A stretch of 64,000 nt of DNA, taken from contig NZ_JAOARO010000059.1 in NCBI RefSeq assembly GCF_025211055.1, positions 1 to 64,000 on the forward strand. The letters are read 5' to 3'. This document shows positions 16,213 through 52,010 of the stretch, one piece after another. Every line of letters begins with the position of its first letter. Position 1 is the first letter of the stretch. Source of the stretch: Vallitalea sp. Its GTDB lineage: Bacteria > Bacillota > Clostridia > Lachnospirales > Vallitaleaceae. The notes below the pieces were generated by a model. That model made no database searches and had not been told where the DNA came from. It saw only the letters and a list, made by a program, of their open reading frames with translations. The position numbers and the translations under genes were made by a program.

Positions 16213-16241
16213 TTGACAATTTAGACAAATGATAATATAAT
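16213..16241 (+). promoter_or_regulatory. Perfect consensus promoter of the secreted-protein cassette
   Basis: TTGACA (16213-16218), a 17-bp spacer and TATAAT (16236-16241). It leaves an untranslated leader of about 190 nt before the ATG at 16440. That leader contains short inverted repeats (GTGCT/AGCAC near 16332-16345, AACTA/TAGTT near 16360-16380, ACTGTT/AACAGT near 16397-16414), so an RNA control element is possible but I do not recognise a known class. No gene is visible elsewhere in 16129-16439. Confidence 0.8.
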
Positions 16242-16439
16242 AACAATGAAATATTAAATGAGTAATACTTAATTAAAAACAAACCAAATATCAAATATAA
16301 AAATAAAAAATAACATAAAAAGATGTTTGGTGCTTATTAGCACTTAACATAAATGATAAACTAACCTGTACAGATAGTTTAAAAAAAATTAAAAAGTACT
16401 GTTGATAAAAAACAGTAAAAAAACGGAGGAGAATTTTAT

Positions 16440-16901
16440 ATGAAAAAAGTATTAGGAATTATTTTTTGTTTTGCATTATTATCACAAAGCGTATTTGCAA
16501 CTAGTAACTCTAGAACCGATAGTATTCCACAACTATATGGAACAATAAGATCGGATGTATGGATTCAAGCATATGCAGATTCTGACGGTACTGGACTGTT
16601 CCAAGTTACTGCTGATTACGATAGTTCAATATATACTAGACCTTCATGGATAAAAACTAAATGGGATTTTTATGCAATTGGTATATCTGCAAGTATTAAT
16701 TTTAAAGCAGGTTCAGGGTCTATTTCAGGATATGGATACACAAATAGTAGTGGCGGATATTGGAAAAACACCAATGGAGCAAGTACAGCTTGGTATAGAG
16801 GAAGAGTAGGAGCTAACGGACTTACTATATATGTTGGTTGTGAAAATACTGCTTCAGGTTATGCAGCAGGAGTACCATTTTCAACTACTGCAAGAGTATA
16901 G
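16440..16901 (+). CDS. Secreted beta-rich protein with Sec signal peptide
   Basis: The first 20 residues are a textbook Sec signal peptide (two Lys, hydrophobic core, SVFA cleavage site), giving a mature protein of about 133 residues. The mature part is rich in Gly, Ser, Thr, Tyr and Trp, with alternating polar/hydrophobic stretches (WDFYAIGISASINF, GSGSISGYGY, GYWKNTNGAS), suggesting a small beta-sandwich. It has a single cysteine. A strong promoter and CGGAGGAG site suggest high expression. It is followed by a hairpin and then a four-gene set including an ABC transporter. The arrangement recalls lactococcin-972-type bacteriocin loci, but I cannot confirm homology to that peptide. Function is unassigned; a secreted antagonist or signal is one possibility. 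Confidence 0.75.
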   Translation: MKKVLGIIFCFALLSQSVFATSNSRTDSIPQLYGTIRSDVWIQAYADSDGTGLFQVTADYDSSIYTRPSWIKTKWDFYAIGISASINFKAGSGSISGYGYTNSSGGYWKNTNGASTAWYRGRVGANGLTIYVGCENTASGYAAGVPFSTTARV

Positions 16902-16927
16902 TTAATATGTATAGTTGATAAAGATTA

Positions 16928-16975
16928 GGGCTGTTTCATTGAAACATTATAATATAATGTTTGATGAGGCAGCCC
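16928..16975 (+). terminator. Long hairpin after secreted-protein gene (GGGCTG...CAGCCC)
   Basis: GGGCTG (16928-16933) pairs with CAGCCC (16970-16975), and AAACATTAT (16942-16950) pairs with ATAATGTTT (16954-16962). No U-tract follows, so it may partially terminate or protect the upstream mRNA, allowing the secreted-protein gene to be expressed above the genes that follow. A similar GGGGCTGT...ACAGCCCC structure lies at 55046-55139. Confidence 0.5.
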
Positions 16976-17019
16976 CATGTAGTATGAATACAATAAACTA
17001 AAATTATGGGGATAATAAT

Positions 17020-18708
17020 ATGAAGAGATTAATATACATATGTTTTATAATAATAATAGGAATAATTCTAATCTATATAGTCGATAGTCATCAATCAGCA
17101 GAAACGATAAAGGATGATAAACATCTAGTTTATGATGAGTCAATGGATAAGTATTTTACAAATTTTATAACAAATGAAAGCATAGAGTTAATGGAATATA
17201 CTGATACAACATCATTAGAAGACACTATAATAAACATTAGAATATTAAATAAATATGGTGAATTAGACTCTGAAAAGATAGATATAAAAAGTCTAAAAAA
17301 AATGATTACTGAAGAATTAAATAGTACCGAAGAAAATAAGGGAATGAGACTATATAATAAGTATGAACTGCTCTCTTCTGTAAATAATTTTTGTGATGAA
17401 TTGGGATTAAATGCAAGTGATTTTATAGATATTAATTATAATTCATTGGAAGATATAAAGAGTATAAGAAAATTAATTGATGAGGATAATAAAACCCTTG
17501 TTATGTATTTACAAATATTATCCAGAATAATAAGTATTAGTGATACAAATGAAGAGATTACATGTGTTAAAGATATAGTGAAAAGTATTAGTAATATTAG
17601 CTATGAACAGTACTCAAAACATGAACAAATGATGATCGGGTTTAATTTAATAGAAATAAAAAGAAAACTTGGTATTGAAGATGTTGACTTAGAAGATAAA
17701 TATAGTCAGCAATTAAGTAATATGATTAATGAATATAATATATATGATGATATAAATATTGGAGATATAGTTGTACTTAACAAAGGTATTCAGTTATTCG
17801 CTAACTTATTTACAGATAATGAAAAAGTCTTGAGTATAATGGACAAATTAAGTTTAATGCTGACAAGTAAAAATGATTACTTTGCTTTTATTAAGATTAA
17901 GTTTTATGAAATAGCTAGTCAAATTAATTATTATAATAAAGATGTTTATGAATGGGTAAAAGCTATGCCCAGAAATGAAGGATACATTTATTATAAACCT
18001 GTAGATATTATACCAACTATAAGAAGTTTATATTTATTTTTAAGATCTTATGAATTAAATAATATGAAAATAGTAGATGTTGAAAAAAATATAAATAATT
18101 ATTTGGAGTTAATATTAGATTCTAGCAACAAGAATAAACTGAATAATACAGAAATATATTATGGATATAAACTTAAAAAATATGTAAAAAATAAAAAGTT
18201 AGATAGTATTATTGAATTAAGTATAAAAAATAGTTGTAATAATATTAATAAAGTAGAAATAACAAAAAATAATGTATATGAATATGTTTTACTTTCAAAA
18301 ACACTAAAAATGAAAGGAGACAATCACTATAAAAAGATTTCAGATAAGATAATAGCTTTTCTGGAAGATGAATCTAATTATGTTAATGATGAAGAGAGAC
18401 TTTTCATGAAAATCATGAAGTTAAATATGAAATCCTATATGAATAAAAAAGAATTCGAAGAAGATATTATAAAATATGAAGATGATATATTAAATTATAA
18501 TGGTGAAACAGAACTTTTACTTATCCATACTTATCTAGAAATATTTCAAAATTTAAAACAGGAGATATCCAATGAATCTAAACAAAAAATCAATAATAAA
18601 TTAGAAGGATATAAGATTTATGGAGGGTATTGCAAAAGACATTCAAAATATGTTAGTTTATTTGATACTCAATTAGCAGAGGAAATAAAATATATGCTGT
18701 TAGATTAA
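17020..18708 (+). CDS. Membrane-anchored helical protein, possible alpha/alpha-toroid fold
   Basis: 562 residues. An uncleaved N-terminal membrane segment (about residues 4-22, no lipobox) is followed by an extracytoplasmic, Asn/Ile/Lys-rich and almost entirely helical domain. Two segments, EGYIYYKPVDIIPTIRSLYL (about 325-345) and YGGYCKRHSKYVSLFDTQLA (about 535-555), have the Gly/aromatic then Leu-aspartate-Thr/Ser pattern that ends repeats of prenyltransferase/terpene-cyclase-like toroids. This is a tentative fold suggestion; I do not recognise a named family and no catalytic DXDD-type motif is evident. It lies between the secreted protein and an ABC ATPase gene. A role as a surface partner, maturation factor or immunity factor for the secreted protein is inference from context only. 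Confidence 0.6.
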   Translation: MKRLIYICFIIIIGIILIYIVDSHQSAETIKDDKHLVYDESMDKYFTNFITNESIELMEYTDTTSLEDTIINIRILNKYGELDSEKIDIKSLKKMITEELNSTEENKGMRLYNKYELLSSVNNFCDELGLNASDFIDINYNSLEDIKSIRKLIDEDNKTLVMYLQILSRIISISDTNEEITCVKDIVKSISNISYEQYSKHEQMMIGFNLIEIKRKLGIEDVDLEDKYSQQLSNMINEYNIYDDINIGDIVVLNKGIQLFANLFTDNEKVLSIMDKLSLMLTSKNDYFAFIKIKFYEIASQINYYNKDVYEWVKAMPRNEGYIYYKPVDIIPTIRSLYLFLRSYELNNMKIVDVEKNINNYLELILDSSNKNKLNNTEIYYGYKLKKYVKNKKLDSIIELSIKNSCNNINKVEITKNNVYEYVLLSKTLKMKGDNHYKKISDKIIAFLEDESNYVNDEERLFMKIMKLNMKSYMNKKEFEEDIIKYEDDILNYNGETELLLIHTYLEIFQNLKQEISNESKQKINNKLEGYKIYGGYCKRHSKYVSLFDTQLAEEIKYMLLD

Positions 18709-18752
18709 TATTTTTCTAATTATCATAAAATTATTAGATAGGAGTTGTATTT

Positions 18753-19439
18753 ATGAAAGAAACTATTCTTAGACTTAGTAAAGTATCTAAAAAATATAAT
18801 AATAAAGTTGTATTATCTAATGTGGATCTTGAATTAAACAAAAGTGAGTTTATTTTAATAAAGGGAGAATCTGGCGAAGGGAAATCAACGTTATTAAATG
18901 TAATAGCCTTCTTAGAGCCTATTGATTCTGGTAAGATTTTTTGGAGACAAAAAGATATAAGTACTATGGATATAAAAGATAAGAAAAATATTAGACGATC
19001 TAATATAGGATACATATTTCAAGATTATAATTTATTTGAAAATCTAACTTTGGAAGAGAATTTAAAGGTCTTTTTAAGATTATCAACTAATAAAAAGGAA
19101 TTTGAGATAGAAAAGGACATTGACAAATGTTTATTAAAATTCAAAATGAGTGATAGAAAAAAGATATTTATTAAATTTCTGTCTGGAGGAGAAAGACAAC
19201 GAGTTGCTATTATGAGAGCATTTTTAGTTGATAAATCTATTATATTAGCCGATGAACCTACAGCAAATATTGATGAAATAAATAAAAAGCGGATTATAGA
19301 TTATTTTAATGAATGGAAAAATGAAGGTAAAGCTGTTATATTGGTTTCTCATGATGATTTCTATGATGATATTGCTGATAAGGTATACATTTTGAAAAAA
19401 GGAAATATTAGCATAATGAATAGAGGTGTAGTAGAATGA
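18753..19439 (+). CDS. ABC transporter ATP-binding protein (MacB/LolD type)
   Basis: 228-residue single ABC ATPase. Walker A is GESGEGKST (about residues 35-43), then a Q-loop in YIFQDYNLFENLT, signature LSGGERQRVAIMRA, Walker B IILADEPTANID and the H-loop VSHDD. The domain most resembles ATPases of the MacB/LolD/FtsE type and those associated with bacteriocin export or immunity. Its stop overlaps the permease start (ATGA at 19436), so the two are translationally coupled and almost certainly form one transporter. TAGGAG precedes the ATG. Confidence 0.92.
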   Translation: MKETILRLSKVSKKYNNKVVLSNVDLELNKSEFILIKGESGEGKSTLLNVIAFLEPIDSGKIFWRQKDISTMDIKDKKNIRRSNIGYIFQDYNLFENLTLEENLKVFLRLSTNKKEFEIEKDIDKCLLKFKMSDRKKIFIKFLSGGERQRVAIMRAFLVDKSIILADEPTANIDEINKKRIIDYFNEWKNEGKAVILVSHDDFYDDIADKVYILKKGNISIMNRGVVE

Positions 19440-20614
19440 AAACAGTATTATTATTTTGCAATAGAAATTTTCGGAAATTCATTGGAGTTATATTTTCATT
19501 AATGACATTTATGCTGATTTTTAATCTTATATTAGGTATTGTTCTTTCTGTATATGACAATATGAAAATAGGAATAGTGGATAATAATTCTCTTTATTTC
19601 ATGGAGGTATATAATGAAGATGAACCAATGAGTATGCCATATAACTTAAAAGAAGATTTGGAAATGCAAAAAGGTGTTGCAGGAGCATTTTTTGATTCTT
19701 CTCACCCTGTTAAATTAATTGATAATGAAAATAACAGTCTTGATATTACAAATATTTTTGGCGTTAGTATAGATGTATTGAAATTTTTTGGTATTGATAA
19801 AGATAATGTTGAAAACAACTTTATCTTCCTAAATAAATCATATAAAAACAATAAAAAATTTAAAGATATTAAAATGGGAGATAGAATATATATCAAAGAT
19901 TATAAGTATGTAAAAGACGGTGAGTTATGGAAGAGTGAGGAGTATCTAATTGAGAGAACTTTTTATGGATTTGTTGATACTAAAAATTTATCTATGTTTA
20001 ACAGTGATTTATCACTTATCGATTATGATACTTCCAAAAAGATTGCTAGAGGGATGACAAAAAACGGTGATCCCTATTTTACAAGATTGATTGTTATAGC
20101 TCCAGAAGTTGATATGCTTGAAGAAATATCTGATTATATAAAAGAAAAGAATTCTGTAGTTAAAACAAGGTACACGTTAGAAACAACAGGTAATTTACCT
20201 AGATTTGCAGTAATTATTGTTACTATTAGTATTTTTATTATTGTTATACTATTTTTAATAAGTACTTTTAGTGTTTCTTCTAATTTAACACAAATATTTA
20301 ATTTGAGAAAAAGAGATATAGCTTTATTTGATATATTAGGCATAGAGGAATCAAAAGTTATGAAAATGTTTATTGGAGAAATATTTATTTATGGAATAGT
20401 AACTTTTTTGTTGACTTCTATCATAACATTTGTTTTATTTTATGGATTCAAAAGCTTTTTAGGTTTTGATATATTGACCAATTATCAACATATATATTAT
20501 TTATTAAATTTTGTGCTTTCAGTAGGAATACTCGTTATAAACAGTTTTATAAAACTTAAAAAAATATTGAATACAAAAAATACTATGGAGTATTATAAGG
20601 AAGTGTTAAAATAA
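19436..20614 (+). CDS. MacB/FtsX-like ABC permease with large extracytoplasmic domain
   Basis: 392 residues with one membrane helix at the N-terminus (about 12-36), an external domain of about 220 residues and three C-terminal helices (about 255-278, 310-335 and 355-378). This is the four-helix topology of MacB/FtsX/LolE permeases, which work as mechanotransmitters rather than import channels. A cytoplasmic-facing segment, LRKRDIALFDILGIEESKV, after helix 2 matches the coupling region of this class. The external domain is not one I recognise. It overlaps the ATPase gene at its start and the lipoprotein gene at its end by one base, so ATPase, permease and lipoprotein are a coupled unit. Confidence 0.8.
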   Translation: MKTVLLFCNRNFRKFIGVIFSLMTFMLIFNLILGIVLSVYDNMKIGIVDNNSLYFMEVYNEDEPMSMPYNLKEDLEMQKGVAGAFFDSSHPVKLIDNENNSLDITNIFGVSIDVLKFFGIDKDNVENNFIFLNKSYKNNKKFKDIKMGDRIYIKDYKYVKDGELWKSEEYLIERTFYGFVDTKNLSMFNSDLSLIDYDTSKKIARGMTKNGDPYFTRLIVIAPEVDMLEEISDYIKEKNSVVKTRYTLETTGNLPRFAVIIVTISIFIIVILFLISTFSVSSNLTQIFNLRKRDIALFDILGIEESKVMKMFIGEIFIYGIVTFLLTSIITFVLFYGFKSFLGFDILTNYQHIYYLLNFVLSVGILVINSFIKLKKILNTKNTMEYYKEVLK

Positions 20615-21660
20615 TGAAGAAATATTTAAGCTTAATACTAGTAATTATATGTGCAATTATAGTTGCATTAGTCAGTTGCAGTAGAAGATTTGATTACTAC
20701 CTAGATAATGGTAATAAGAATAATAAACTGAATATAGATGAAAGGGATTTACAATATCTAGAAGTTAGTGATGGTTATATTAGCATTACCCAATATAATG
20801 AAGAAAAATCAAAAGTAGAAAAGAAGTATATTAAGGATAAATTAACTAAAAAAAATGATTTATTAACCTCTAGTAATAATGGTAACTTTGTTTTAGAACA
20901 AAAAAATATGGGGGTTGGCTCAGATAGAATTATTTCTTTAAATCAGTTAAAAAGCTATAATCTTAAAGAAAATGGTTATCAAATAATAAGTGAAAATGAT
21001 AATAACATACTACTTCAGGTATACAATCATAATGAACATGAATGGACTTTGAAATTCTTTAATAAACATCAATACAATCTATTAGACATTGACTTTTCTA
21101 AAACAATTAATAAAACTAATTCAGAAGTAAATGAAGGGATATCATTAGAAGAAAAAACATTTATCTTTCTTTTTAGAGAAGAAGATGGAACATATTTGTG
21201 TTATGTAAATGATCAAGATGTTAAATATACTAAAATTAGCGATGAAATAATGAGAGATATTAAACTGATTGATAGTGATTATAATCATATTTTGTTATAT
21301 AAAGGATACAAAGAAGGAGATAATTATGGCATTAGTTATCCTAAAATTATAAGTTTGGCTTACGATATTAATAATGACAAATTAGTTGTAAATACAGAAA
21401 AAGTTATAGAACTACAAAGTACTGATGATCTAAATGGAAGTGATTGTGTTGGTTTTGTTAGAAAAGATAATAATTACTATCTATTACTTCATTATAGAGG
21501 GGTAGGACTATTAAAATTATATAAATTTAATGAATCTGGCGAAGGTAAAGAAATAAAAATGATTAATCAATTTGATCTTAAAAAAGTAGTAGAAGTAAAT
21601 AAGGAATTTAAATGCTTTGATGGTCAAAGAGTAGTTACTTTTGATTTAACACAATACTAA
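20614..21660 (+). CDS. Lipoprotein, partner of MacB-like transporter
   Basis: 348 residues. The signal sequence ends in the lipobox LVSC with lipidation cysteine C22, so it is anchored outside the membrane. The rest is rich in beta-strand-like repeats with Tyr/Asn/Asp, perhaps a propeller-like fold; I see no enzymatic motif. Its ATG shares the last base of the permease stop. Coupling to an MacB-like ATPase/permease pair suggests that it is the extracytoplasmic partner, for example a substrate-holding or sensor/immunity protein. No family recognised. Confidence 0.7.
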   Translation: MKKYLSLILVIICAIIVALVSCSRRFDYYLDNGNKNNKLNIDERDLQYLEVSDGYISITQYNEEKSKVEKKYIKDKLTKKNDLLTSSNNGNFVLEQKNMGVGSDRIISLNQLKSYNLKENGYQIISENDNNILLQVYNHNEHEWTLKFFNKHQYNLLDIDFSKTINKTNSEVNEGISLEEKTFIFLFREEDGTYLCYVNDQDVKYTKISDEIMRDIKLIDSDYNHILLYKGYKEGDNYGISYPKIISLAYDINNDKLVVNTEKVIELQSTDDLNGSDCVGFVRKDNNYYLLLHYRGVGLLKLYKFNESGEGKEIKMINQFDLKKVVEVNKEFKCFDGQRVVTFDLTQY

Positions 21661-21715: not shown

Positions 21716-21744
21716 TTGTCAATTTCATTAAAACATGTTAAAAT
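21716..21744 (+). promoter_or_regulatory. Probable yebC promoter
   Basis: TTGTCA (21716-21721) and TAAAAT (21739-21744) are 17 bp apart, about 35 bp before the yebC start. An 8-bp inverted repeat TAGTTAAT/ATTAACTA lies at about 21674-21693, without a U-tract. Confidence 0.5.
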
Positions 21745-38650: not shown

Positions 38651-39217
38651 ATGGTTAAAAAACCTTTTTCAATGTCTTTTGATTTAAAAACAGGGAATAC
38701 AGAGGAAAATAAAACTACTTCAAGATTTTTATCTAACATGAAAGATATGTATATGGATGTAGATAAAGCAGAAGAAATGATTAAGAAGGAAGATGTAAAA
38801 GTCTATGATTTTACAGAGCTAGGATTTGACGAAGTAGAACAAGATTTATTATATGGTACAAGTATTGTTTATCCTGGTAAAGTTGGAAATGAGTATTTTA
38901 TGACAAAAGGGCACTTTCATACAAAACTTGATCTTGCAGAGGTGTATTACTGTTTAAGTGGTAGAGGCTATATGCTAATGGAAACTCCTGAAGGTGATTG
39001 GGAGGCTGTTTTGTTAGAAGCAGGAAAAGCTGTTTATGTTCCAGGTAGATGGGCTCATAGAAGCATTAATATAGGAGATGAACCATTGGTTACTTTCTTT
39101 GTTTTTAGAGCTGATGCAGGACATGATTATGGAACTATTGAGACAAAAGGTTATAGAAAGCTAATTGTGGAAAAAGATGGGAAACCAGAAATTATTGATA
39201 ATCCAAAATGGAAATAG
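38651..39217 (+). CDS. Cupin-type glucose-6-phosphate isomerase
   Basis: Interconverts glucose 6-phosphate and fructose 6-phosphate with a bound metal; this cupin (archaeal-type PGI, PF06560) is unrelated to classical Pgi. 188 residues. The metal ligands are all present: H88 and H90 in TKGHFHTKLDLAE, E97, and H136 in PGRWAHRSIN. GGAGGG precedes the ATG. It opens a five-gene operon whose other members handle sugar acids, so the true substrate might be a related phosphosugar rather than glucose 6-phosphate; the family resemblance is strong, the substrate less certain. Confidence 0.85.
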   Translation: MVKKPFSMSFDLKTGNTEENKTTSRFLSNMKDMYMDVDKAEEMIKKEDVKVYDFTELGFDEVEQDLLYGTSIVYPGKVGNEYFMTKGHFHTKLDLAEVYYCLSGRGYMLMETPEGDWEAVLLEAGKAVYVPGRWAHRSINIGDEPLVTFFVFRADAGHDYGTIETKGYRKLIVEKDGKPEIIDNPKWK

Positions 39218-39249
39218 ATAGAATGTCATACTAATGAAAGGAGAGTTTT

Positions 39250-40173
39250 ATGAGTTATAAGATTCTAATTACTCCAAGATCTTTTGGGAAGAATAATTCT
39301 AAACCGTGGGATATGCTAAAAGAAAAAGGATATGAAATAATAACTAATCCATATGGAAGAATTATGACAGAAGAAGAAATGATAGATTGTATAAAAGATG
39401 TAGATGGGGTCATATTAGGTGTTGATCCTTGCAACAGAAAAGTACTAGAAAAAGCGACCAATCTTAAATGTATTTCAAGGTATGGTGTAGGATTAGATAA
39501 TATTGATATGGAGTATGCAAAGGAAAGAAATATACCAGTACATAGAACAGTTGGAGCTAATTCTAATGCTGTAGCAGATTATGCATTTGGACTTATGCTT
39601 GATATTACAAGGAAGATAAGTTGTATAGACAGGGAATGTAGAAAAGGAAACTGGAAAAAAATTAAAACTTCTGAAATGTGGGGTAAAAATATAGGTGTTT
39701 TAGGATTAGGTGCTATTGGAAAAGGTGTGGCAAAAAGAGCTTCTGGATTTAATATGAATGTATTGGCTTATGATGTTTTTAAGGACGAATCTTATGCAAA
39801 AGATAATAATATTAAGTATGTTGATCTGGAAACGATTTATAAAGAGGCTGATTTTATTAGTTTGCATTTGCCTTTGACAAAAGAAACTAAGGATCTCATA
39901 AGTTATAAGGAATTTGATATGATGAAAGATTCAGCTATTGTAGTCAATACTGCTAGGGGTGGTGTTATTAATGAAGATGCATTGTGTGATGCTTTATTAA
40001 ATAACAAAATACTAGGTGCAGGTATTGATGTGTTTGAGGAAGAACCACCTTCAAATAATCAGTTTACTAAACTAGATAATATTGTAATAGGTTCACATTG
40101 TGCGGCTTCAACATTAGAAGCAATTGATAATATGAGTATGATGGCAACAACTAATTTGATAAACGAATTATAG
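39250..40173 (+). CDS. D-isomer-specific 2-hydroxyacid dehydrogenase
   Basis: NAD-linked dehydrogenase of the phosphoglycerate/hydroxyacid dehydrogenase family. The Rossmann motif GVLGLGAIGKGVAKR (about residues 145-159) and the catalytic set Arg (NTARGGVINEDAL), Glu (DVFEEEPP) and His (GSHCAAS) are present. 307 residues without the C-terminal ACT domain of SerA, so it is likely catabolic. AAAGGAG precedes the ATG. Lying between a cupin isomerase and KDPG aldolase, it may reduce or oxidise a 2-keto/2-hydroxy sugar acid. Serine biosynthesis is a less likely role, given the context. Confidence 0.88.
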   Translation: MSYKILITPRSFGKNNSKPWDMLKEKGYEIITNPYGRIMTEEEMIDCIKDVDGVILGVDPCNRKVLEKATNLKCISRYGVGLDNIDMEYAKERNIPVHRTVGANSNAVADYAFGLMLDITRKISCIDRECRKGNWKKIKTSEMWGKNIGVLGLGAIGKGVAKRASGFNMNVLAYDVFKDESYAKDNNIKYVDLETIYKEADFISLHLPLTKETKDLISYKEFDMMKDSAIVVNTARGGVINEDALCDALLNNKILGAGIDVFEEEPPSNNQFTKLDNIVIGSHCAASTLEAIDNMSMMATTNLINEL

Positions 40174-40203
40174 ATTAATTGAAAAAAGTAGGAGGTCAAT
40201 AAA

Positions 40204-40854
40204 ATGGATAAGGAAACAGTAATTAAGAGAATATCTGAGGTAGGCTTAGTGGCAGTAGTTAGAGCTGAAAGTGCAGAAAAAGCAAAAAAAATTACAGAAG
40301 CATGTATAAAAGGTGGAGTAGCAGCTATAGAAATTACATTCACTGTTCCACAAGCTCATGAAATTATTGCTAAACTATCAAAAACATATTCAGAAGATGA
40401 TATTATCTTAGGAGCAGGTACAGTACTAGATTCTGAAACAGCACGTCTTGCTATATTAAGTGGTGCACAATATATAGTTAGTTCAAGCTATAGTGAAGAA
40501 ACTGCCAAGTTATGTAATCGCTATCGTGTACCTTATATGCCTGGATGTATGACCATGAAAGAAATTGTAGAGGCTATGGAAGGTGGAGCAGATATAATTA
40601 AAGTATTCCCAGGTGATATGCTAGGAACTAAATTTATTAAGGCTGTAAAAGGACCAATGCCACAAGTGAAAATGATGCCTACAGGCGGAGTTGATGTAGA
40701 TAATGTTAAAGACTGGGTGAATGCTGGAGTTGTGGCTTGTGGAGCTGGAAGTAGTTTAACAGCAGGAGCAAAAACAGGTGATTATGATAAAGTTGTTGAA
40801 ACTGCAAAATTATTTATTGAAAGAATAAACGAAGCAAGAAAAAATGTAAGGTAG
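40204..40854 (+). CDS. KDPG/KHG aldolase family protein
   Basis: Class I aldolase splitting 2-keto-3-deoxy-phosphogluconate (or a related 2-keto-3-deoxy acid) to pyruvate and an aldehyde such as glyceraldehyde 3-phosphate. Schiff-base lysine K133 in IIKVFPGDMLG and E43 in AAIEITFTVP are conserved, as are VVRAE (R20) and the phosphate-binding MPTGGV. 216 residues. Ribosome binding site GGAGG. It shares one base between its stop and a GTG of the next gene, so it is tightly coupled to the lactonase. It would be the pyruvate-forming end of the pathway encoded here. Confidence 0.92.
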   Translation: MDKETVIKRISEVGLVAVVRAESAEKAKKITEACIKGGVAAIEITFTVPQAHEIIAKLSKTYSEDDIILGAGTVLDSETARLAILSGAQYIVSSSYSEETAKLCNRYRVPYMPGCMTMKEIVEAMEGGADIIKVFPGDMLGTKFIKAVKGPMPQVKMMPTGGVDVDNVKDWVNAGVVACGAGSSLTAGAKTGDYDKVVETAKLFIERINEARKNVR

Positions 40855-40862
40855 TGATAAGG

Positions 40863-41813
40863 ATGTTTATACGAACAGTTTTGGGTGATAAAAGTATAGA
40901 CGAATTAGGTCATTGTCAATGTCATGAACATATATATCTAGAAAAGGGGTATTCTGCTGAGATTAACCCTGTATTATGTATTGATGACTATAACAAATCA
41001 TTAAAAGAATTGACTGATTATTATGATAATGGAGGAAGAGCAATTGTTGATGCACAGCCTATAGGATGTGGTCGTTGCGCAGATAAACTAATAGATTTAG
41101 CATCAAATAGCAAAGTAGATATTATTGCTTCTACAGGCTTTCATAAGCTTATTTTCTATCCTAGAGAACATTGGATTTATAAAATTAGTCAAGGGGAATT
41201 TGAAGAGTTAATGCACAAAGAAATTGAAGAAGGAATGTTCATTAATTGTAATACTAATTATCCGAGGGAACAAATTGACAATAAAGCTGGAATGATCAAA
41301 GTAGCATGTGACAAACAAGGACTTGATAATACATATAAAAAATACTTTGCAGCGGCAGCTGCTGTTGCAAAAAAAACAGGTATATCAATACAATGTCATA
41401 TTGAAAGAGCAGAAACTGGTATGGAAATCGTGGATTATCTACTAGAATCTGGTGTAAGTGCTGATTCAATAATTTTAGCTCATATGGATAGAAGAGTTGA
41501 TACTATTAAGGAAAATCTTTTGGTTGCTAAAAAAGGGATATATCTTCAATATGATACTATAGGAAGATATAAGTACCATAGTGATGAAGATGAAATAGCT
41601 CTAATTAAAAATATGTGTAGTGAAGGTTATATAGATAATTTGTTATTAGGATTAGATACAACACGAGCAAGATTGCTGAGTTATAAAGGGACAATAGGTC
41701 TTAGTTACATAAGAAAACATTTTATCAAAAAAATGATGGATAATGGTTTTAATAATGAGCAAATAAAAAGTTTGTTAATAGCAAATCCAAAAAAAGCATT
41801 AGCAAAGAAATAA
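40863..41813 (+). CDS. Phosphotriesterase-family hydrolase, probable sugar(-phosphate) lactonase
   Basis: Binuclear-metal amidohydrolase fold of the phosphotriesterase family. All six ligands are visible, numbered from ATG 40863: H21 and H23 (CHEHIY), carboxylated lysine K146 (AGMIKVA), H179 (QCHIER), H207 (LAHMDR) and D265 (LGLDTTRA). 317-codon frame; the in-frame GTG at 40854 is an alternative. Members of this family in Firmicutes and Mycoplasma hydrolyse phosphorylated sugar lactones, which suits a locus with dehydrogenases that would produce lactones and a KDPG aldolase. True phosphotriesterase activity is unlikely. Substrate is inferred from context. Confidence 0.82.
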   Translation: MFIRTVLGDKSIDELGHCQCHEHIYLEKGYSAEINPVLCIDDYNKSLKELTDYYDNGGRAIVDAQPIGCGRCADKLIDLASNSKVDIIASTGFHKLIFYPREHWIYKISQGEFEELMHKEIEEGMFINCNTNYPREQIDNKAGMIKVACDKQGLDNTYKKYFAAAAAVAKKTGISIQCHIERAETGMEIVDYLLESGVSADSIILAHMDRRVDTIKENLLVAKKGIYLQYDTIGRYKYHSDEDEIALIKNMCSEGYIDNLLLGLDTTRARLLSYKGTIGLSYIRKHFIKKMMDNGFNNEQIKSLLIANPKKALAKK

Positions 41814-41832
41814 TTGAAAAGGAGAATTAAAA

Positions 41833-42783
41833 ATGAGTGTAATATTACCAGGTAAAGCAACACAACCAACGTTTTATTTTATAGGTGTAACAACAACAAA
41901 ATCATCTATTATGAAAGTTTTTCCAAGATGGGCAAAAGAAGCTTTGGGACTCGAAGATGCTGTAATAAAAGGTATTGATATAGAAATACATGCTGATCCT
42001 AAGGATTATATTGATGTAGTTGATTTTATTAAAAATGATGAATTATCTCTAGGTGCATTAGTAACAACTCATAAACTAGACTTGTTTGAAGCAACTGAAG
42101 ATATGTTTGATTATCTTGATCCACATGCCAAAAGGTTTAGAGAGTTATCCTGTATATCTAAGAGAAATGGTGAGCTTAGAGGTCATGCAAAAGATCCTAT
42201 TTCAAGTGGACTTACTATGGAAAATTTTATTCCGGCTGGATTTTGGGAAGAGAACAAAGGAGAAGTTTTTATAATGGGAGCAGGAGGCAGTGCTCTAGCT
42301 ATAAGTTCTCATTTAACTAGAGAAAAATTTAAAGATGACGTACCATCAAAAATAGTAATAGCAAATAGAAGCCAGCCAAGACTTGATGCGGCAAAAGAAA
42401 AATTAATAGGAATTAATGACAAAGTTAGGTTTGAATACTTACTTGGGCCAACACCAGAGGATAATGATGGATATTTGAGCGATATTAAGCCTTATTCGTT
42501 GGTTATTAATGCAACAGGTTTAGGTAAAGATAGACCAGGCTCCCCATTAACAAATAATGCTGAGTTTCCAGAAAATAGCCTTGTATGGGAGTTGAATTAT
42601 CGAGGAAATTTAATATTTATGGATCAAGCAAAAGCACAAGAACAAGAAAAACAATTAACAATAGAAGATGGTTGGATTTACTTTATTCATGGTTGGACTC
42701 AAGTTATTGCAGAAGTATTTGATATTGAGATAACTGGAGAAAAGCTAAATCATTGTGAAAAGATAGCTTTTGAAATGAGATAA
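41833..42783 (+). CDS. Shikimate dehydrogenase-like oxidoreductase (divergent AroE family)
   Basis: 316 residues with AroE-like architecture: an N-terminal substrate domain and a C-terminal Rossmann domain (GAGGSALAIS, about 149-158; NRSQPR). The catalytic Lys-Asp pair is kept as K81 (VTTHK) and D121 (GHAKDP). The N-terminal SxS-PxxHN substrate signature of true shikimate dehydrogenase is replaced by TTTKSSIMKVFPRW, and the late Q-motif differs (HGWTQVIAE). It therefore probably oxidises another polyol or cyclitol acid. It is the last gene of the first operon (RBS AAAAGGAG). Shikimate biosynthesis is unlikely given the neighbours; quinate/shikimate-type substrates remain possible. Confidence 0.75.
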   Translation: MSVILPGKATQPTFYFIGVTTTKSSIMKVFPRWAKEALGLEDAVIKGIDIEIHADPKDYIDVVDFIKNDELSLGALVTTHKLDLFEATEDMFDYLDPHAKRFRELSCISKRNGELRGHAKDPISSGLTMENFIPAGFWEENKGEVFIMGAGGSALAISSHLTREKFKDDVPSKIVIANRSQPRLDAAKEKLIGINDKVRFEYLLGPTPEDNDGYLSDIKPYSLVINATGLGKDRPGSPLTNNAEFPENSLVWELNYRGNLIFMDQAKAQEQEKQLTIEDGWIYFIHGWTQVIAEVFDIEITGEKLNHCEKIAFEMR

Positions 42784-42932
42784 TCAATACATTATTATAG
42801 GATAATAGTTGAATAATGTTAAAAAATGGGTAAAATTAAAAAAAAATGAAAAAGCATGAAAAATTGCTTTATATAAAGTGCACAAAAATAATAGAAAAAT
42901 GTATAAAAAAGCAACTTTTTGCACATATAATA

Positions 42933-42961
42933 TTGACAAAAATACTATACGATAGTATAAT
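42933..42961 (+). promoter_or_regulatory. Consensus promoter with 7-3-7 palindrome, second sugar operon
   Basis: TTGACA (42933-42938), 17 bp and TATAAT (42956-42961) match consensus exactly. The spacer and -10 hold the inverted repeat ATACTAT-ACG-ATAGTAT (42942-42958), well placed for a repressor, perhaps the DeoR-family protein at 56815. The intergenic 42784-42932 also contains a weak AAAGCA/TGCTTT hairpin (about 42850-42871) that may end the first operon. Confidence 0.75.
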
Positions 42962-43021
42962 TTAATAAAACAAAAATAAATAATAAAATATGAAAAAGAA
43001 CAAAAGAGGTGAAGCGGTATA

Positions 43022-44047
43022 ATGAGTAAAAAAGTCGGTATATGTTTAATTGGTTCTGGAAGAGCAGGTATGATTCATGCTAATAATTTTAATACAAAAG
43101 TCCCTAATGCAGAAATGGTAGCTGTATGTGACCCAGTAGAAGAAGCCGCTAAAAAGGCATGTGAACAACTTGGTATAAGTACATATTACTTGGATTATAA
43201 AGAAGCATTAAAAGATGATAATGTTGACGCAGTTGTTGTTGCATCACCTACAAAATATCATAAAGAAATAGTTGTTGCAGCAGCAAATGCAGGAAAAGAT
43301 ATACTATGTGAGAAACCAATGGCAATGAACGTAGAAGAATGCGATGTAATGATAAAAGAGGCAAAATATAATAATGTAAAACTTCAAATAGCTTTTATGA
43401 GAAGATTTGATGAAGGCTTTATGCAAGCAAAAGAAATAATAGACTCAGGTGAAATTGGTGAAGTTGTTTTAGTGAAATCATTAACAAGAGGTCCTAGTAT
43501 TCCTAAGCCCTGGATGTATGACATTTCAAAAAGCAATGGACCATTAGCAGAAGTAAATAGTCATGATATTGATGCTATGAGATGGCTTGCAGGAAGTGAA
43601 TTTAAAACAATTTATGGAATAGCTGATAATTATAGAGCACCTCAAGTAAAAGAACAGTATCCAGATTACTATGATAATGTTATTATGGCAATTCAATTTG
43701 AGAATGGTGTACAAGGACTAATGGATGGGGCAACATCAGTTCGATATGGATATGATGCAAGAGCAGAAGTATTAGGTACTGAAGGTTGTATATTTATTGG
43801 TGGTACAAATGCTAACAATACTGTTACTTGTAGTCTTAATAATGGTAAGAAAAGAAAAGTAATGAATAGTTGGATGAACTTATTTAAGGATGCTTATACA
43901 GCTGAGGATGTTAGTTTTATTGATTGTATTATTAATGACCAAGAACCAAAAGTAACAGGTCATGATGGTAAAATGGCTGTAAAGATAGTAGAAGCAGGTA
44001 TGCAGTCAATAAAAACAAAAAAAGTGATTGATCTTAATAAAATGTAA
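43022..44047 (+). CDS. Gfo/Idh/MocA-family oxidoreductase (inositol-dehydrogenase-like)
   Basis: NAD(P)-dependent oxidation of a sugar or cyclitol hydroxyl. Rossmann motif GSGRAGMIHANNF near the N-terminus and the family motif CEKPMAMN (lysine in EKP, about residue 97) are present; the catalytic region VNSHDIDAMRWLAG follows. 341 residues, close to myo-inositol 2-dehydrogenase in length and motifs. GAGGTGA precedes the ATG. First gene after the consensus promoter, followed 12 nt later by a zinc dehydrogenase. The Gfo plus zinc-dehydrogenase pair recalls the inositol pathway of Thermotoga, but substrate cannot be fixed. Confidence 0.9.
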   Translation: MSKKVGICLIGSGRAGMIHANNFNTKVPNAEMVAVCDPVEEAAKKACEQLGISTYYLDYKEALKDDNVDAVVVASPTKYHKEIVVAAANAGKDILCEKPMAMNVEECDVMIKEAKYNNVKLQIAFMRRFDEGFMQAKEIIDSGEIGEVVLVKSLTRGPSIPKPWMYDISKSNGPLAEVNSHDIDAMRWLAGSEFKTIYGIADNYRAPQVKEQYPDYYDNVIMAIQFENGVQGLMDGATSVRYGYDARAEVLGTEGCIFIGGTNANNTVTCSLNNGKKRKVMNSWMNLFKDAYTAEDVSFIDCIINDQEPKVTGHDGKMAVKIVEAGMQSIKTKKVIDLNKM

Positions 44048-44059
44048 TGGAGGTATATA

Positions 44060-45115
44060 ATGGATACAATGTTGGCTGCAAGAATGTATGGTAAACAAGA
44101 CATTAGAATTGAGCAAGTCCCTATACCAGAAATTAACGATAATGAAATTTTAATAAAAGTTAAAAGTGCTGCAATTTGTGGAACTGATCTGAGAATGTAT
44201 ATGAATGGATATAAAGATATATCAGAAAATAATCCTAGAATACTGGGACATGAATTTGCAGGAACAATAACAAAAGTAGGTAAAAATATTAATAAATATC
44301 AAGAAGGAATGACAGTAGCTGTAGCTCCTAATATGGGATGTGGAGTATGTGAATTTTGTTCATCAGGTAAAAGTCATTTATGTCAAGATTTTTTTCAAGC
44401 TCCAGGAATTAATATAGATGGTGCTTTTGCAGAATATGTAAGAATTCCTGAACCAGCTGTTAGACAAGGAAATGTAATTGTTCTTGATGAAAGAGTTTCA
44501 ACAGAAGAAGCTGCACTAAATGAACCTCTATCATGTGTTTATAACGCATTTCAAAAAGTAGGAGTATTTCCTGGCGATAATGTATTAATTATTGGTGCTG
44601 GACCAATTGGTATTATGCATGCGAAACTAGCTAAGATGGCAGGTGCTGCTAATGTTATGATTAATGATTTATCAAAAGAGAGATTAGACATATGTAAAAA
44701 AATAGATAATAGTTTTATAGGGGTACATAGTGATGAACTTGAAGATATAATTATGAAAGTAACTAAAGGTAAAGGATTAGATGTTTGTATTACTGCTAAT
44801 CCAGCACCAATTACTCAGAAAATAGCACTAGGTCTAATGGCTATGGAAGGAAGAGTTAATTTCTTTGGTGGATTACCAAAAGATAAAGAAAATGTATCAC
44901 TTAATACTAATTTGATTCACTACAAAGAATTAGTTATAACAGGAAGCACAAAAGCAAGTGTAGCTATGTTTTCTAAGACTCTGCAATTTATTGCGGAAGG
45001 ACTAATTGACGTAAAATCTCTTGTATCCAATAGATATGAATTAAAAAATATACATGAGGCAATAGAGTCATCAAAAAATGCAACAGGTCTTAAGAATGTA
45101 ATAAGCTTTATATAA
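44060..45115 (+). CDS. Zinc-dependent alcohol/polyol dehydrogenase (MDR family)
   Basis: Medium-chain dehydrogenase related to sorbitol, threonine and scyllo-inosose-type dehydrogenases. Catalytic zinc region ICGTDLRMY (Cys near residue 38) and GHEFAGTI; structural zinc site CGVCEFCSSGKSHLC; cofactor motif GAGPIGIMHAKLAKMAGA. 351 residues. GGAGG precedes the ATG. Co-transcribed with the upstream Gfo/Idh/MocA gene. It probably performs a second oxidation on the same carbon skeleton; the exact step is inference. Confidence 0.9.
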   Translation: MDTMLAARMYGKQDIRIEQVPIPEINDNEILIKVKSAAICGTDLRMYMNGYKDISENNPRILGHEFAGTITKVGKNINKYQEGMTVAVAPNMGCGVCEFCSSGKSHLCQDFFQAPGINIDGAFAEYVRIPEPAVRQGNVIVLDERVSTEEAALNEPLSCVYNAFQKVGVFPGDNVLIIGAGPIGIMHAKLAKMAGAANVMINDLSKERLDICKKIDNSFIGVHSDELEDIIMKVTKGKGLDVCITANPAPITQKIALGLMAMEGRVNFFGGLPKDKENVSLNTNLIHYKELVITGSTKASVAMFSKTLQFIAEGLIDVKSLVSNRYELKNIHEAIESSKNATGLKNVISFI

Positions 45116-45211
45116 TATTTTTGAACATTATTTTCAGAATAACTTAACAAAGCATTTTTATCTTAATATTCAAACATTAATGATAAATTGGTATTCAAAA
45201 TAAAATTACAT

Positions 45212-45246
45212 ATTGAACTTAATAATAATTAATTATTAAGTTCAAT
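45212..45246 (+). other. Perfect 15-bp inverted repeat in intergenic region
   Basis: ATTGAACTTAATAAT (45212-45226) and ATTATTAAGTTCAAT (45232-45246) around AATTA, about 35 nt before the isomerase-like gene. No U-run follows. It may be an operator or an mRNA stabilising hairpin; a smaller analogue with TTGAATTAAG arms stands before 50794. Confidence 0.55.
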
Positions 45247-45279
45247 TGTTTATATTTGTATATATAGGAGGGTATTACA

Positions 45280-46596
45280 ATGAAAGCTAAACTAGTTCCA
45301 TTGTATTTTAAAGAAGGTAGAGATGAAGAATTTGATATTCAGTTAAATGCATTGAAGAGAATGCTTGAAGATGTAGCTGAATTTGAACAACCAATTGCTG
45401 TAGGAGAGGCGTTACCAGATGTAGATGCAGTCATTTTTCCTCAGCTTATAGGAGAAGCGTATAAAGTTATTAACGATATAAAGAAAATTGATGTACCAAT
45501 ATTAGCTGTGACATCAGAGTTTGGTACAGTTGCCATGTGGGATTGGGAGATTGTGACATATTTAAAAGCTAATGGTCTTGATACATATGCTCCTTATAAT
45601 CTTGAGCTAACTAAGAAATTATGTAAAACACTAGCAATGAAAAGAAGTCTTAAGGGTGCAAAATTTTTAGTATTTCAAGATGATCCAGGTGAAGGTATGC
45701 AGGCAAGTATTTTCAAACGTTTTTATTGGTGGGAAGATGAATGTGCAAAGACTATGCTAGATAAATTTGGGATAGCAATTGTAAAGAAAAGCTTTCAGGC
45801 ACTAGGAGAAGAAGCTAAAAAGATAACAGATGAAGAAGCACTTGCTATGTTAAGTAAAAAAACATTTGAAACAGAAGGTGTATGTCAAAAAGGACTTGCA
45901 AGTGCCATGAAAATGTATATGGTTATAAAAAAAGAAGTAGAAAATGATAGTAGTATTATAGGAGCAGGAATTAACTGTCTTAATGAATCTTTTTACTCTG
46001 ATACAACACCTTGTTTAGCGTGGAACTTATTATTTGAAGAAAAAGAATTAATGTGGGCATGTGAAGCTGATACTATGTCATTATTAACCAAATATATTAT
46101 CTACAAATCTTTAGGGGTACCATTAATGATGACAAACTTATATCCTTTCCTCATGGGTATGGCTGCCCTAAAACATGAACGAATTGATAAATTTCCACAA
46201 GTTGATAATCCCGAAAATCATGTTTTAGTTGCTCATTGTGGTTATTTTGGACTTATACCTAGATGTTTTTCTAGTAAATGGGTATTAAAAGAAAAAGTAT
46301 TAGGTATTGTTGATGACAACGCTACTGCTATTGACGGACGTATGGCAGAAGGAGATGTTACATTAATACAAATGCATCCTACACTCGAAAAGATGCTGGT
46401 AATTGAAGGAGAGTTAGAAGGGTATCAGCAATATCCAAATTCTGACTGTCTAAACGGTGGAATTATCAGAGTGGATAATGGTTATGTTATGATGGATAAA
46501 TTATATTCTCATCATGCTATTTTGGCAAAAGGAAAACTAAGCAAGGATGTTTATTATATAACAAAATTATTGGGTATAGAAATGGAAGAATGCTAA
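45280..46596 (+). CDS. L-fucose/L-arabinose isomerase-family protein
   Basis: 438 residues with the fold of the FucI/AraA-like isomerases: an N-terminal region with DAVIFPQLIGEAY, a VLAVTSEFGTVAMWDWE segment, and a C-terminal part containing AGINCLNES, EADTMSLLTKYI and the late H-rich HHAILAKG. Similar short members are annotated as L-fucose isomerase-like and have mostly unknown substrates. It lies directly upstream of the ABC transporter genes, with GGAGGG before the ATG. It could isomerise a keto/aldo intermediate, but classical fucose or arabinose catabolism is not supported because no fuculose or ribulose kinase/aldolase pair is present. Confidence 0.75.
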   Translation: MKAKLVPLYFKEGRDEEFDIQLNALKRMLEDVAEFEQPIAVGEALPDVDAVIFPQLIGEAYKVINDIKKIDVPILAVTSEFGTVAMWDWEIVTYLKANGLDTYAPYNLELTKKLCKTLAMKRSLKGAKFLVFQDDPGEGMQASIFKRFYWWEDECAKTMLDKFGIAIVKKSFQALGEEAKKITDEEALAMLSKKTFETEGVCQKGLASAMKMYMVIKKEVENDSSIIGAGINCLNESFYSDTTPCLAWNLLFEEKELMWACEADTMSLLTKYIIYKSLGVPLMMTNLYPFLMGMAALKHERIDKFPQVDNPENHVLVAHCGYFGLIPRCFSSKWVLKEKVLGIVDDNATAIDGRMAEGDVTLIQMHPTLEKMLVIEGELEGYQQYPNSDCLNGGIIRVDNGYVMMDKLYSHHAILAKGKLSKDVYYITKLLGIEMEEC

Positions 46597-46629
46597 TGAG
46601 CATAAGAATTTTTTTAAGGAGGATGTGAA

Positions 46630-48108
46630 TTGGAAACAATACTAGAAATGAAAAAAATTCACAAAAGCTTCTTTGGGGTTGAAGTTCTACATGGGGTTGA
46701 TTTTGATGTTAGAAAAGGTGAATGTATTGCCATATGTGGAGAAAATGGGGCAGGAAAATCAACACTTATGAAGATATTAACAGGCATACATAACAAGTTT
46801 TTAGGTGAAATAATTTATAAAGGAGAAAATATCCAACATCTATCACCTTTAGAGATTCAACATAAAGGTATTTCAATGATTCATCAAGAGTTGAATTTAT
46901 TAGATGAGATGACAGTAGCACAAAACATCTATTTATGCCGAGAACCAAAGAAAAATAGATTGATCGATTTTAAAAAGATGAATAAAGATGCAAAACAATT
47001 ATTAGAGAGATTAGAAGAAATTGATCCAAAGGCTAAAGTTAAAGATTTGGGTATAGCTAAAAAGCAGATAGTTGAAATTGCAAAATCATTATCCTACAAT
47101 GCTGATCTTATTATTATGGATGAACCAACAGCCGTATTAACAATTAATGAGACAAAAATGTTATTTCAACTAATAAGACAATTAAAGAAAAATGGTGTAG
47201 CTGTTGTTTATATTTCCCATAGATTGAAAGAAATAAAAGAAATATGTGATCGTGTTACTATACTTAGAGATGGAACCTATATTACAACAAAGGACATTGA
47301 AGAGGTTTCTGAAAAAGATATTGCAGAACTAATGGTTGGTAGAGAAATTGAAGAAGTAAATCAAAAAGAATATAGTGGTTCAGGCAATATTGCATTGAGT
47401 GTACAACATGTTTCTGATGACTTCTTAAAAGATGTGAGTTTTGAATTAAAAGAAGGTGAGATATTAGGTATCTCTGGATTAGTAGGAGCTGGACGTACTG
47501 AATTAGCAGAATATATATTTGGAATTAGAAAAGCAAAGAAGGGTGAAATTTCTGTTTATGGTGAACATGTAAGTATTAAATCCCCTATAGACGCAATAAA
47601 ATATCGTATTGGTTTTGCAACAGAAGATAGAAAAGGCTCAGGTCTATTTCTTGATAGAAGTATTAGAGATAATACTAACATTGTAAGTATGTTAAAAAGT
47701 AAAAATATCTTTAATAATAGAAGAAAAGAAGAGATATTGGCTAAAAATATGATTGACGTTTTTAGAGTTAAATGCCAGAGTACAGTACAAAAAATTAAGA
47801 ACTTAAGTGGTGGTAATCAACAAAAAATAGTTCTAAGTAAATGGATTGCTGTTAGTTCTAAGATATTAATACTAGATGAGCCAACAAGAGGCGTAGATAT
47901 AGGAGCAAGAAAAGAAATATATGACATTATTAATAGATTAGCAGAAGAAGGAAAATCAGTTATTGTTATATCATCGGATCTAACAGAGGTGTTAGCCATA
48001 TCACAAAGAGTTCTTGTCATGCACCAAGGAGAAATAAGAGGAGAAATTGTTGGTGATGAAATTAATGAAGAAAATATAATGATTCTTGCAACGGGTATTG
48101 GGGAGTAA
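46630..48108 (+). CDS. Sugar ABC transporter ATP-binding protein (RbsA/MglA/XylG type)
   Basis: 492 residues, a duplicated ABC ATPase as in ribose/galactose/xylose importers. N-terminal domain: Walker A GENGAGKST, Q-loop HQELNLLDEMT, Walker B LIIMDEPTAVL. C-terminal domain lacks a canonical Walker A (GLVGAGRTEL) but keeps LSGGNQQKIVLSKW and LILDEPTRGVD, which is normal for this class. Start TTG 46630 with AAGGAGG. It is followed by the permease (28 nt) and a binding protein. Confidence 0.95.
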   Translation: METILEMKKIHKSFFGVEVLHGVDFDVRKGECIAICGENGAGKSTLMKILTGIHNKFLGEIIYKGENIQHLSPLEIQHKGISMIHQELNLLDEMTVAQNIYLCREPKKNRLIDFKKMNKDAKQLLERLEEIDPKAKVKDLGIAKKQIVEIAKSLSYNADLIIMDEPTAVLTINETKMLFQLIRQLKKNGVAVVYISHRLKEIKEICDRVTILRDGTYITTKDIEEVSEKDIAELMVGREIEEVNQKEYSGSGNIALSVQHVSDDFLKDVSFELKEGEILGISGLVGAGRTELAEYIFGIRKAKKGEISVYGEHVSIKSPIDAIKYRIGFATEDRKGSGLFLDRSIRDNTNIVSMLKSKNIFNNRRKEEILAKNMIDVFRVKCQSTVQKIKNLSGGNQQKIVLSKWIAVSSKILILDEPTRGVDIGARKEIYDIINRLAEEGKSVIVISSDLTEVLAISQRVLVMHQGEIRGEIVGDEINEENIMILATGIGE

Positions 48109-48136
48109 TAAAAACGGAGAGAAGGAGTAATTGCAA

Positions 48137-49105
48137 GTGAGTAATATAAAAAACAAACCAAACATAACAAAAAAAAATTATATAAGAAGATTATGGAATA
48201 ACAATAGTTCTATATTTGCATTGGTGGTATTGGTGGTATTTGCAGCTATCTCAAGTGATAAATTTTTTCAAGTATCAAATATTATGAATGTATTAAGGCA
48301 AACATCTATTGTGGGGTTAATCGCTATTGGGATGACTTTCGTTGTTATTGGTGGAGGTATTGATTTATCCGCAGGTTCTGTTCTTGCATTAAGTGGTGGA
48401 GTTATTATATTAATGCAATCACAAGGATTACCAATTGTTTTATGTATATTAGGTGGGTGTATTGCTGGAATACTAGTAGGTATTATGAATGGGCTTTTTA
48501 TTACTAAAGCAAAATTAGCTCCATTTATTGTTACATTAGCAGTAAGTACAATAGCACGTTCATTGTTAATTCATTTTGCAAATGGTGCTACACTTATTGG
48601 TAAGAATGATCAAGCTTTTACAAGAATAGGTAACGGAAAAATTGGAGTTGTACCAATTCCAGTAATTATATTTGCTATAGTAGCTATTATAGCTCATTTT
48701 GTACTTAATAATACAAAATTTGGTACATATATATATGCAATTGGTGGGAACGAAAAGACAGCGGTGTATTCAGGAATAAGAGTAGATAGAATAAAGATAG
48801 CCACATATATGGTAATAGGATTATGTATTGGACTAGCATCAATGATAGAATCTGCAAGACTTGCATCTGTATCATCATCATCATCAGGAATATTATATGA
48901 GCTAGATGCTATTACAGCAGTTATCATAGGTGGAACGTCACTAAACGGTGGAAAAGGTAGAATATCTGGAACGATTATTGGTATGCTCATATTGGGAATT
49001 ATAAGTAACATCATGAACTTATTAGGAATTTCTCCATATCTTAATGGAGCAGTAAAAGGATTAATAATCTTAATTGCTGTACTTATGCAAAGAAAAGATA
49101 GGTAG
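48137..49105 (+). CDS. Sugar ABC transporter permease (RbsC type)
   Basis: 323-codon frame with about eight to ten hydrophobic segments and the RbsC-family motifs: GMTFVVIGGGIDLSAGSVLAL, YAIGGNEKTAVYSGI, AVIIGGTSLNGGKGRISGT. These place it in the carbohydrate uptake transporter-2 class. I use GTG 48137, 9 nt after GAAGGAG; TTG 48131 is in frame but only 3 nt from it. One permease gene is present, so it probably forms a homodimer with the adjacent duplicated ATPase. Confidence 0.94.
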   Translation: MSNIKNKPNITKKNYIRRLWNNNSSIFALVVLVVFAAISSDKFFQVSNIMNVLRQTSIVGLIAIGMTFVVIGGGIDLSAGSVLALSGGVIILMQSQGLPIVLCILGGCIAGILVGIMNGLFITKAKLAPFIVTLAVSTIARSLLIHFANGATLIGKNDQAFTRIGNGKIGVVPIPVIIFAIVAIIAHFVLNNTKFGTYIYAIGGNEKTAVYSGIRVDRIKIATYMVIGLCIGLASMIESARLASVSSSSSGILYELDAITAVIIGGTSLNGGKGRISGTIIGMLILGIISNIMNLLGISPYLNGAVKGLIILIAVLMQRKDR

Positions 49106-49159
49106 TAGATATATATTAAACATATATATAAATCTTAATTTCAAAAAGGAGTGAGTGTT

Positions 49160-50191: not shown

Positions 50192-50213
50192 TATTTGTTA
50201 TAAATAAGTGAAT

Positions 50214-50245
50214 AGATAATTTTATATTCATAAATAAAATTATCT
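50214..50245 (+). other. Intercistronic 12-bp hairpin after binding-protein gene
   Basis: AGATAATTTTAT (50214-50225) and ATAAAATTATCT (50234-50245) pair around an 8-nt loop, without a U-tract. It lies 22 nt after the stop of the abundant binding protein and may protect the upstream mRNA, a known way to raise binding-protein levels. Confidence 0.5.
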
Positions 50246-50293
50246 TATATAAAATAATAAAAAACAATATAAAAACAAAAGGAGATGTTATTT

Positions 50294-50713: not shown

Positions 50714-50739
50714 TAAGGTAAAATGATAATAAAAGTAGG

Positions 50740-50772: not shown

Positions 50773-50793
50773 TTTATATAGGAGGGTTTAACA

Positions 50794-51969: not shown

Positions 51970-52010
51970 TAAAGATCTAAGTTTATTAGAATGGGGGGTA
52001 CATAGATAAG

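Follow-up and report, generated by a model that had tools for sequence, protein, structure and literature searches.

A candidate mobile cassette of Clostridia with a secreted beta-rich protein, an anchored helical protein and a type VII ABC complex

We analysed 64,000 nucleotides of a Vallitalea sp. genome (GCF_025211055.1, contig NZ_JAOARO010000059.1, positions 1 to 64,000; hereafter the window) and focused on a cassette at positions 16,213 to 21,660. It encodes a small secreted protein (the exoprotein, gene 1), a membrane-anchored protein (the partner, gene 2), an ATP-binding cassette (ABC) ATPase (gene 3), a permease (gene 4) and a lipoprotein (gene 5). The first four genes are the core of the cassette and the lipoprotein is an optional fifth, as it is absent from the two other cassettes that we detected. 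The exoprotein and the partner are two new protein families, while the remaining parts are of known kinds, namely a Sec-exported exoprotein, a type VII ABC transporter and a lipoprotein. No description of these partners together was found in the literature or among protein families. We consider the chances evenly balanced that the cassette represents an undescribed family of mobile systems of the Clostridia, in which a new, strongly conserved beta-rich exoprotein, a new anchored protein of helical repeats and a dedicated type VII complex would work on the outside of the cell, either for killing and self-protection or for surface building.

Distribution and linkage of the cassette

The exoprotein was searched for in 96 relatives and in partly overlapping samples drawn from the phylum (398 genomes) and the class (391 genomes), as well as by a single pattern-based scan across 84,980 species genomes and in plasmids, phages and IMG/VR. 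It was present in three genomes: the window genome, in a single copy, a second species of the genus (G005), and a distant Ruminococcus metagenome-assembled genome (MAG), SIG549 (G760). The order exoprotein, partner, ATPase, permease is found at all three loci, and thus in two distant groups of Clostridia. In G005, genes 1 to 4 occupy the same site, with identities of 82, 50, 74 and 69%, respectively. In SIG549, one contig carries the exoprotein (61%) and the first half of the partner gene (~23-25%) up to the contig end, and another contains at its start the other half of this gene, followed by the ATPase (45%) and an overlapping permease (32%). The contig ends that split this partner gene (L004 7586-7687 and L054 1-110) resemble the termini of an IS3-type transposase gene, and the gene is apparently interrupted by an IS3-type insertion in that population.

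The initial annotation raised the question of whether all five genes travel together, which holds for genes 1 to 4 at every locus but not for the lipoprotein. It also named exoproteins occurring widely without the transporter as an observation that would speak against a system, and this did not occur, as each of the three exoprotein genes is accompanied by partner, ATPase and permease. Weaker exoprotein matches were taken as chance: a segment of an unrelated frame within a sugar-transport/amylase cluster (G095), a small out-of-context frame with a stop (G732) and a 1751-amino-acid (aa) LamG-like surface protein (G794). The same applies to a weak partner match in G508, which is a glycosyltransferase. 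The cassette had no match in phages, plasmids or IMG/VR contigs, and carriage by a phage or plasmid was rejected.

An orphan, decaying relative of the cassette was found in G290 (L017, G290:C32, 500-3040), where an intact ATPase gene and an intact lipoprotein gene (45% identity to gene 5) flank a permease gene that carries a large deletion and is broken by an internal stop. Neither the exoprotein nor the partner was found in G290.

Gain and loss at the MATE-yebC site

The cassette is absent from four of the six genomes of the genus. In these (G001-G004), the MATE and yebC genes are directly adjacent, 67-104 bp apart. One of them, G004, is a close sister of the window genome (94% identity in MATE, 95% in yebC), so the two have come to differ in cassette content recently. 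At the right edge of the cassette, the yebC promoter is identical to that of G005 at 28 of 29 positions and to that of G004 at 19 of 29. The yebC gene itself follows the sister, its first 60-nt stretch across the start codon being identical at 60/60 positions to G004 and at 50/60 to G005. Based on these comparisons, the cassette has probably moved laterally, and the simplest account would be that the window lineage acquired a block, with the yebC promoter as part of it, from a relative similar to G005 through recombination close to the yebC start. G005 itself was not the donor, since it lacks gene 5. The empty sites have a single promoter form in common, which makes repeated loss less likely. 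We do not claim a relic of the old yebC promoter to the left of the cassette, as shuffled sequences reach the alignment score in 5% (G004) and 22% (G003) of cases.

Expression signals and gene layout

The coordinates of the features are given in Table 1. The promoter is the sole 12/12 consensus match within 15.9-22.0 kb, where weaker matches occur at chance frequency. At the related locus L005 both hexamers are also perfect, with a spacer of 18 nt. The leader, which starts at about 16248 and runs up to the ATG, folds more stably than shuffled sequence, with hairpins at ~16323-16350, ~16357-16381 and ~16397-16417. Its 3' ~105 nt are nearly identical in G005, whereas the surrounding non-coding DNA has diverged. 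A known riboswitch was rejected, as the leader had no match in Rfam up to E=1.

The hairpin between genes 1 and 2 has no U-tract, and no intrinsic terminator was found in the 15.9-22.0 kb region. L005 has an equivalent hairpin at the corresponding position (z -6.5), and so does SIG549 (L004, z -5.4), where its letters are unrelated. Its presence at all three loci, despite the unrelated sequence in SIG549, is good evidence of retained function, which would most simply be to protect the exoprotein message and to have the genes on either side expressed unequally. Downstream, genes 3 to 5 overlap by 4 nt (ATPase/permease) and 1 nt (permease/lipoprotein). In all these respects, i.e., the perfect promoter, the structured leader of about 190 nt, the 153-residue protein with a Sec signal, the separating hairpin and the four following genes, three of them overlapping, the initial annotation described the layout correctly.

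Table 1. Features of the cassette and its right edge in the window
Feature	Position	Strand	Evidence
Promoter, TTGACA-17-TATAAT	16213-16241	+	12/12 consensus positions matched
5' leader, ~190 nt, with GGAGGAG ribosome site and three hairpins	16248-16439	+	folding z -3.5
Gene 1, Sec-secreted exoprotein, 153 aa	16440-16901	+	open reading frame (ORF) and Sec signal
Intercistronic hairpin, genes 1/2, 48 nt, no U-tract	16928-16975	+	z -6.7
Gene 2, partner, 562 aa, single N-terminal transmembrane segment (TM)	17020-18708	+	ORF
Gene 3, ABC ATPase, 228 aa	18753-19439	+	PF00005, 2e-32
Gene 4, MacB/FtsX-type (type VII) permease, 392 aa	19436-20614	+	PF02687, 34.2 bits
Gene 5 (optional), lipoprotein, 348 aa	20614-21660	+	lipobox LVSC
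yebC promoter, right edge of cassette	21716-21744	+	28/29 identity to G005

The exoprotein and its helical partner

The exoprotein carries a Sec signal, MKKVLGIIFCFALLSQSVFA, and all three exoproteins have a positive start, a hydrophobic core and an A-x-A type cut site (judged by eye). The mature protein of ~132 aa (14 kDa) is rich in serine, glycine, threonine and aromatic residues. It is the best-conserved product of the cassette in both G005 and SIG549, and between the window and G005 its synonymous divergence (dS) is the lowest (0.74, compared with 1.3-2.2 for the other cassette genes). The low dS and the strong promoter fit high expression of the exoprotein. Each exoprotein has one cysteine, located at a different position in SIG549, and hence none is conserved. 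No wall-anchoring motif, LPXTG or repeat was found in the exoprotein.

Genes 1, 2 and 5 had no above-threshold match in Pfam, NCBIfam, PHROGs, PADLOC or the Protein Data Bank (PDB), in line with the initial impression that the exoprotein and the 562-residue protein were unfamiliar. The three exoproteins scored 13.8, 16.9 and 17.2 bits against DUF4859 (PF16151), below its gathering score of 22.6, and this consistent sub-threshold match may serve as a lead only. The AF2 model of the exoprotein, built from just three sequences, predicted strands only and, with a pLDDT of 36, was too poor for a fold search. The suggested relation to lactococcin 972 found no support: neither PF09683 nor TIGR01653 matched the exoprotein up to E=1, and hhalign gave a probability of 0.3% against Lcn972 (letters checked against PDB 2lgn), which led us to reject homology.

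The partner has one N-terminal membrane anchor followed by an extracytoplasmic domain, and its AF2 model is all-helical with a pLDDT of 66. No PDB structure matched this model at E<=0.001 in Foldseek. The best matches were weak, to assorted helical solenoids (E 0.019, TM 0.22), and speak neither for nor against the terpene-cyclase/prenyltransferase-like toroid named in the initial annotation.

The transporter and lipoprotein genes

The permease scores above the PF02687 cutoff (25.5 bits) in the window and in SIG549 (42.7 bits), and its predicted topology, from hydrophobicity and alignment, comprises TM1, an outside domain of ~220 aa and TM2-4. With a PF00005 ATPase gene overlapping directly upstream, genes 3 and 4 have the features of a type VII (MacB/FtsX) ABC transporter as judged from their families, and the MacB-like assignment in the initial annotation is supported. 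The best NCBIfam model for the ATPase was TIGR03608, the ABC group of lactococcin 972, with 198 bits; the cutoff of this model, 254.85, was reached neither at 198 nor at 204 bits. We looked for a second exoprotein cassette beside ten inspected ATPases of the window genome that come near TIGR03608, and found none.

Two loci elsewhere resemble the transporter part of the cassette. In G662 (G662:C32, L018 7667-10523), a distantly related ATPase-permease pair precedes an anchored protein of 324 aa; this permease is related to gene 4 (hhalign 98%), and the anchored protein shows no relation to gene 5. This locus suggests that an ATPase, a single FtsX permease and a surface protein constitute a wider type of module. 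In the window genome (G000:C21:210000-224000, L063 5157-13374), a cluster resembling those of ribosomally synthesized and post-translationally modified peptides (RiPPs), with a PqqD/radical-SAM-type protein, an aminotransferase and a methyltransferase (by eye), has at its end an ABC ATPase of its own, a permease of 387 aa with MacB topology and a small anchored protein of 134 aa. The 387-aa permease showed no clear relation to gene 4.

Comparison with known systems

In lactococcin-972 loci, the gene for a Sec-secreted protein with a beta-sandwich fold comes first, and after it come membrane and ABC genes for which a function in immunity is presumed (PMC11796350; PMC4055356). In none of the Lcn972-like loci have the B and C genes been verified experimentally (PMC11796350). 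The cassette shares with the lactococcin 972 and streptococcin loci (lcn972-orf2-orf3; scbABC) a small protein with a Sec signal peptide encoded first, a membrane-protein gene and ABC transporter genes after it, and an ATPase whose best NCBIfam match is TIGR03608. However, its exoprotein is unrelated in sequence and twice as long, and none of the five proteins matches TIGR01654, an anchored all-helical protein being encoded in its place. The permease is a separate 392-aa single-FtsX protein, the lipoprotein is optional, and the ATPase scores under the TIGR03608 cutoff. Judged by these sequence features, several of which define the family, the cassette does not belong to the lactococcin 972 family.

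The transporter resembles the MacB/FtsX/LolCDE type VII group in its PF02687 permease with an N-terminal TM, a large outside domain and three C-terminal TMs, and in its separate ATPase of FtsE/LolD-like sequence. In contrast, it lacks a MacA-like adaptor and an outer membrane partner (Gram-positive type), it is encoded beside an anchored helical protein and sometimes a lipoprotein, and no named subfamily scored above cutoff. The class III bacteriocins geobacillin 26 and alicyclobacillin 24, compared by description only, are likewise secreted, unmodified, medium-sized antibacterial proteins of Gram-positive bacteria with a signal peptide, but they are of 24-26 kDa with an alpha-helical core, and no immunity or ABC genes are mentioned for them (PMC13176240).

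Possible function of the cassette

Type VII ABC transporters of the MacB/FtsX kind draw on ATP to power motion on the outside of the membrane, without transporting substrates through it (PMC8277102). This mode of action, extended from the families to genes 3 and 4, together with the Sec-exported exoprotein and the anchored outside partner, suggests a machine that acts outside the cell. The reading that we place first, with somewhat less than even confidence, is a mobile cassette of an undescribed type for a Sec-secreted, bacteriocin-like protein with self-protection by a type VII ABC complex. The strong promoter, the stable leader and the protecting 3' hairpin would yield much exoprotein and little of the remaining products. 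The exoprotein would be exported by Sec, cut after VFA and folded outside into a beta-rich protein of ~14 kDa, which may act on the envelope of neighbours without the cassette. On the producer surface, the partner, with the lipoprotein where present, would bind the exoprotein or its target, and ATP-driven movements of the ATPase-permease pair on the external side of the membrane would drive them to strip the exoprotein off, thus protecting the cell.

We rank this reading first because of the patchy, laterally exchanged and non-essential distribution of the cassette, its strict linkage, the hairpin for unequal expression, the leftover transporter genes of G290 and the parallel with lactococcin-972 loci. 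The G290 genes, standing without exoprotein and partner, can be likened to orphan immunity genes. Several observations weigh against a bacteriocin. The G290 permease is decayed, so the remnant may protect nothing. The match to TIGR03608 does not discriminate: gene 3 cannot be assigned to the lactococcin-972 ABC group, because it scores below the cutoff and four other ATPases of the window genome, located outside such cassettes, outscore it on this model. The partner diverges fast and is apparently disrupted in SIG549, a poor fit with an essential immunity protein. Bacteriocins often diversify, but no other component of the cassette is as conserved as the exoprotein. Neither a pheromone nor a two-component regulator is encoded beside the cassette genes, and the antibacterial role of the exoprotein is itself a prediction.

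High conservation of the exoprotein would be expected of a self-assembling subunit (61% in SIG549, compared with 45% for the ATPase), and the cassette could instead serve surface assembly, which we consider rather unlikely overall. The exoprotein would then be an abundant structural or adhesive subunit, the partner an anchored chaperone or platform, and the type VII complex would power or gate assembly as in FtsEX, which controls wall enzymes. The composition of the exoprotein, rich in S/G/T and aromatic residues and in predicted beta structure, and the strong expression signals agree with such a role. On the other hand, it has none of the anchoring or repeat features of wall proteins, its clean absence from the sister species argues against a housekeeping component, and the partner is conserved far below the level of a dedicated chaperone.

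We find it improbable that the cassette is a sensing module, with the exoprotein as a secreted signal or bait and the partner and transporter sensing it, or an envelope antibiotic bound to it, and relaying the surface state in a BceAB-like manner. Permeases of the MacB/FtsX type are able to relay instead of transport (PMC8277102), and the large outside domain and the extra lipoprotein could form a receptor; but no histidine kinase, regulator or sigma/anti-sigma pair lies within or beside the cassette, and its promoter is of the plain consensus sigma-70 type with no apparent operator. Just as doubtful is a defence or detoxification system, in which toxins, antimicrobials or phages arriving at the cell surface would be bound by the exoprotein and, once bound, cleared by the ABC complex. 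Patchy distribution and lateral transfer are equally typical of defence genes, and the optional lipoprotein would suit them. However, PADLOC gave generic ATPase hits only, the neighbours are housekeeping genes without a defence island, and secreted decoys of 14 kDa would be unusual.

Further along the window (38651-57591), we noted by eye a large cluster for sugar-acid/cyclitol catabolism with one ABC transporter, several oxidoreductases, a DeoR-type regulator and two ribose-type binding lipoproteins (49151 and 53970).

Implications

If the cassette encodes a bacteriocin system, it would contribute a new exoprotein family and a new plan of self-protection that relies on a type VII ABC complex. 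The near-identical sister species, whose site is empty, would then be a ready indicator strain. If it serves surface assembly or sensing, it would widen the known roles of MacB/FtsX-type transporters in Gram-positive bacteria. Either way, it offers a comparable system for the immunity function of the ABC genes in Lcn972-like loci (PMC11796350).

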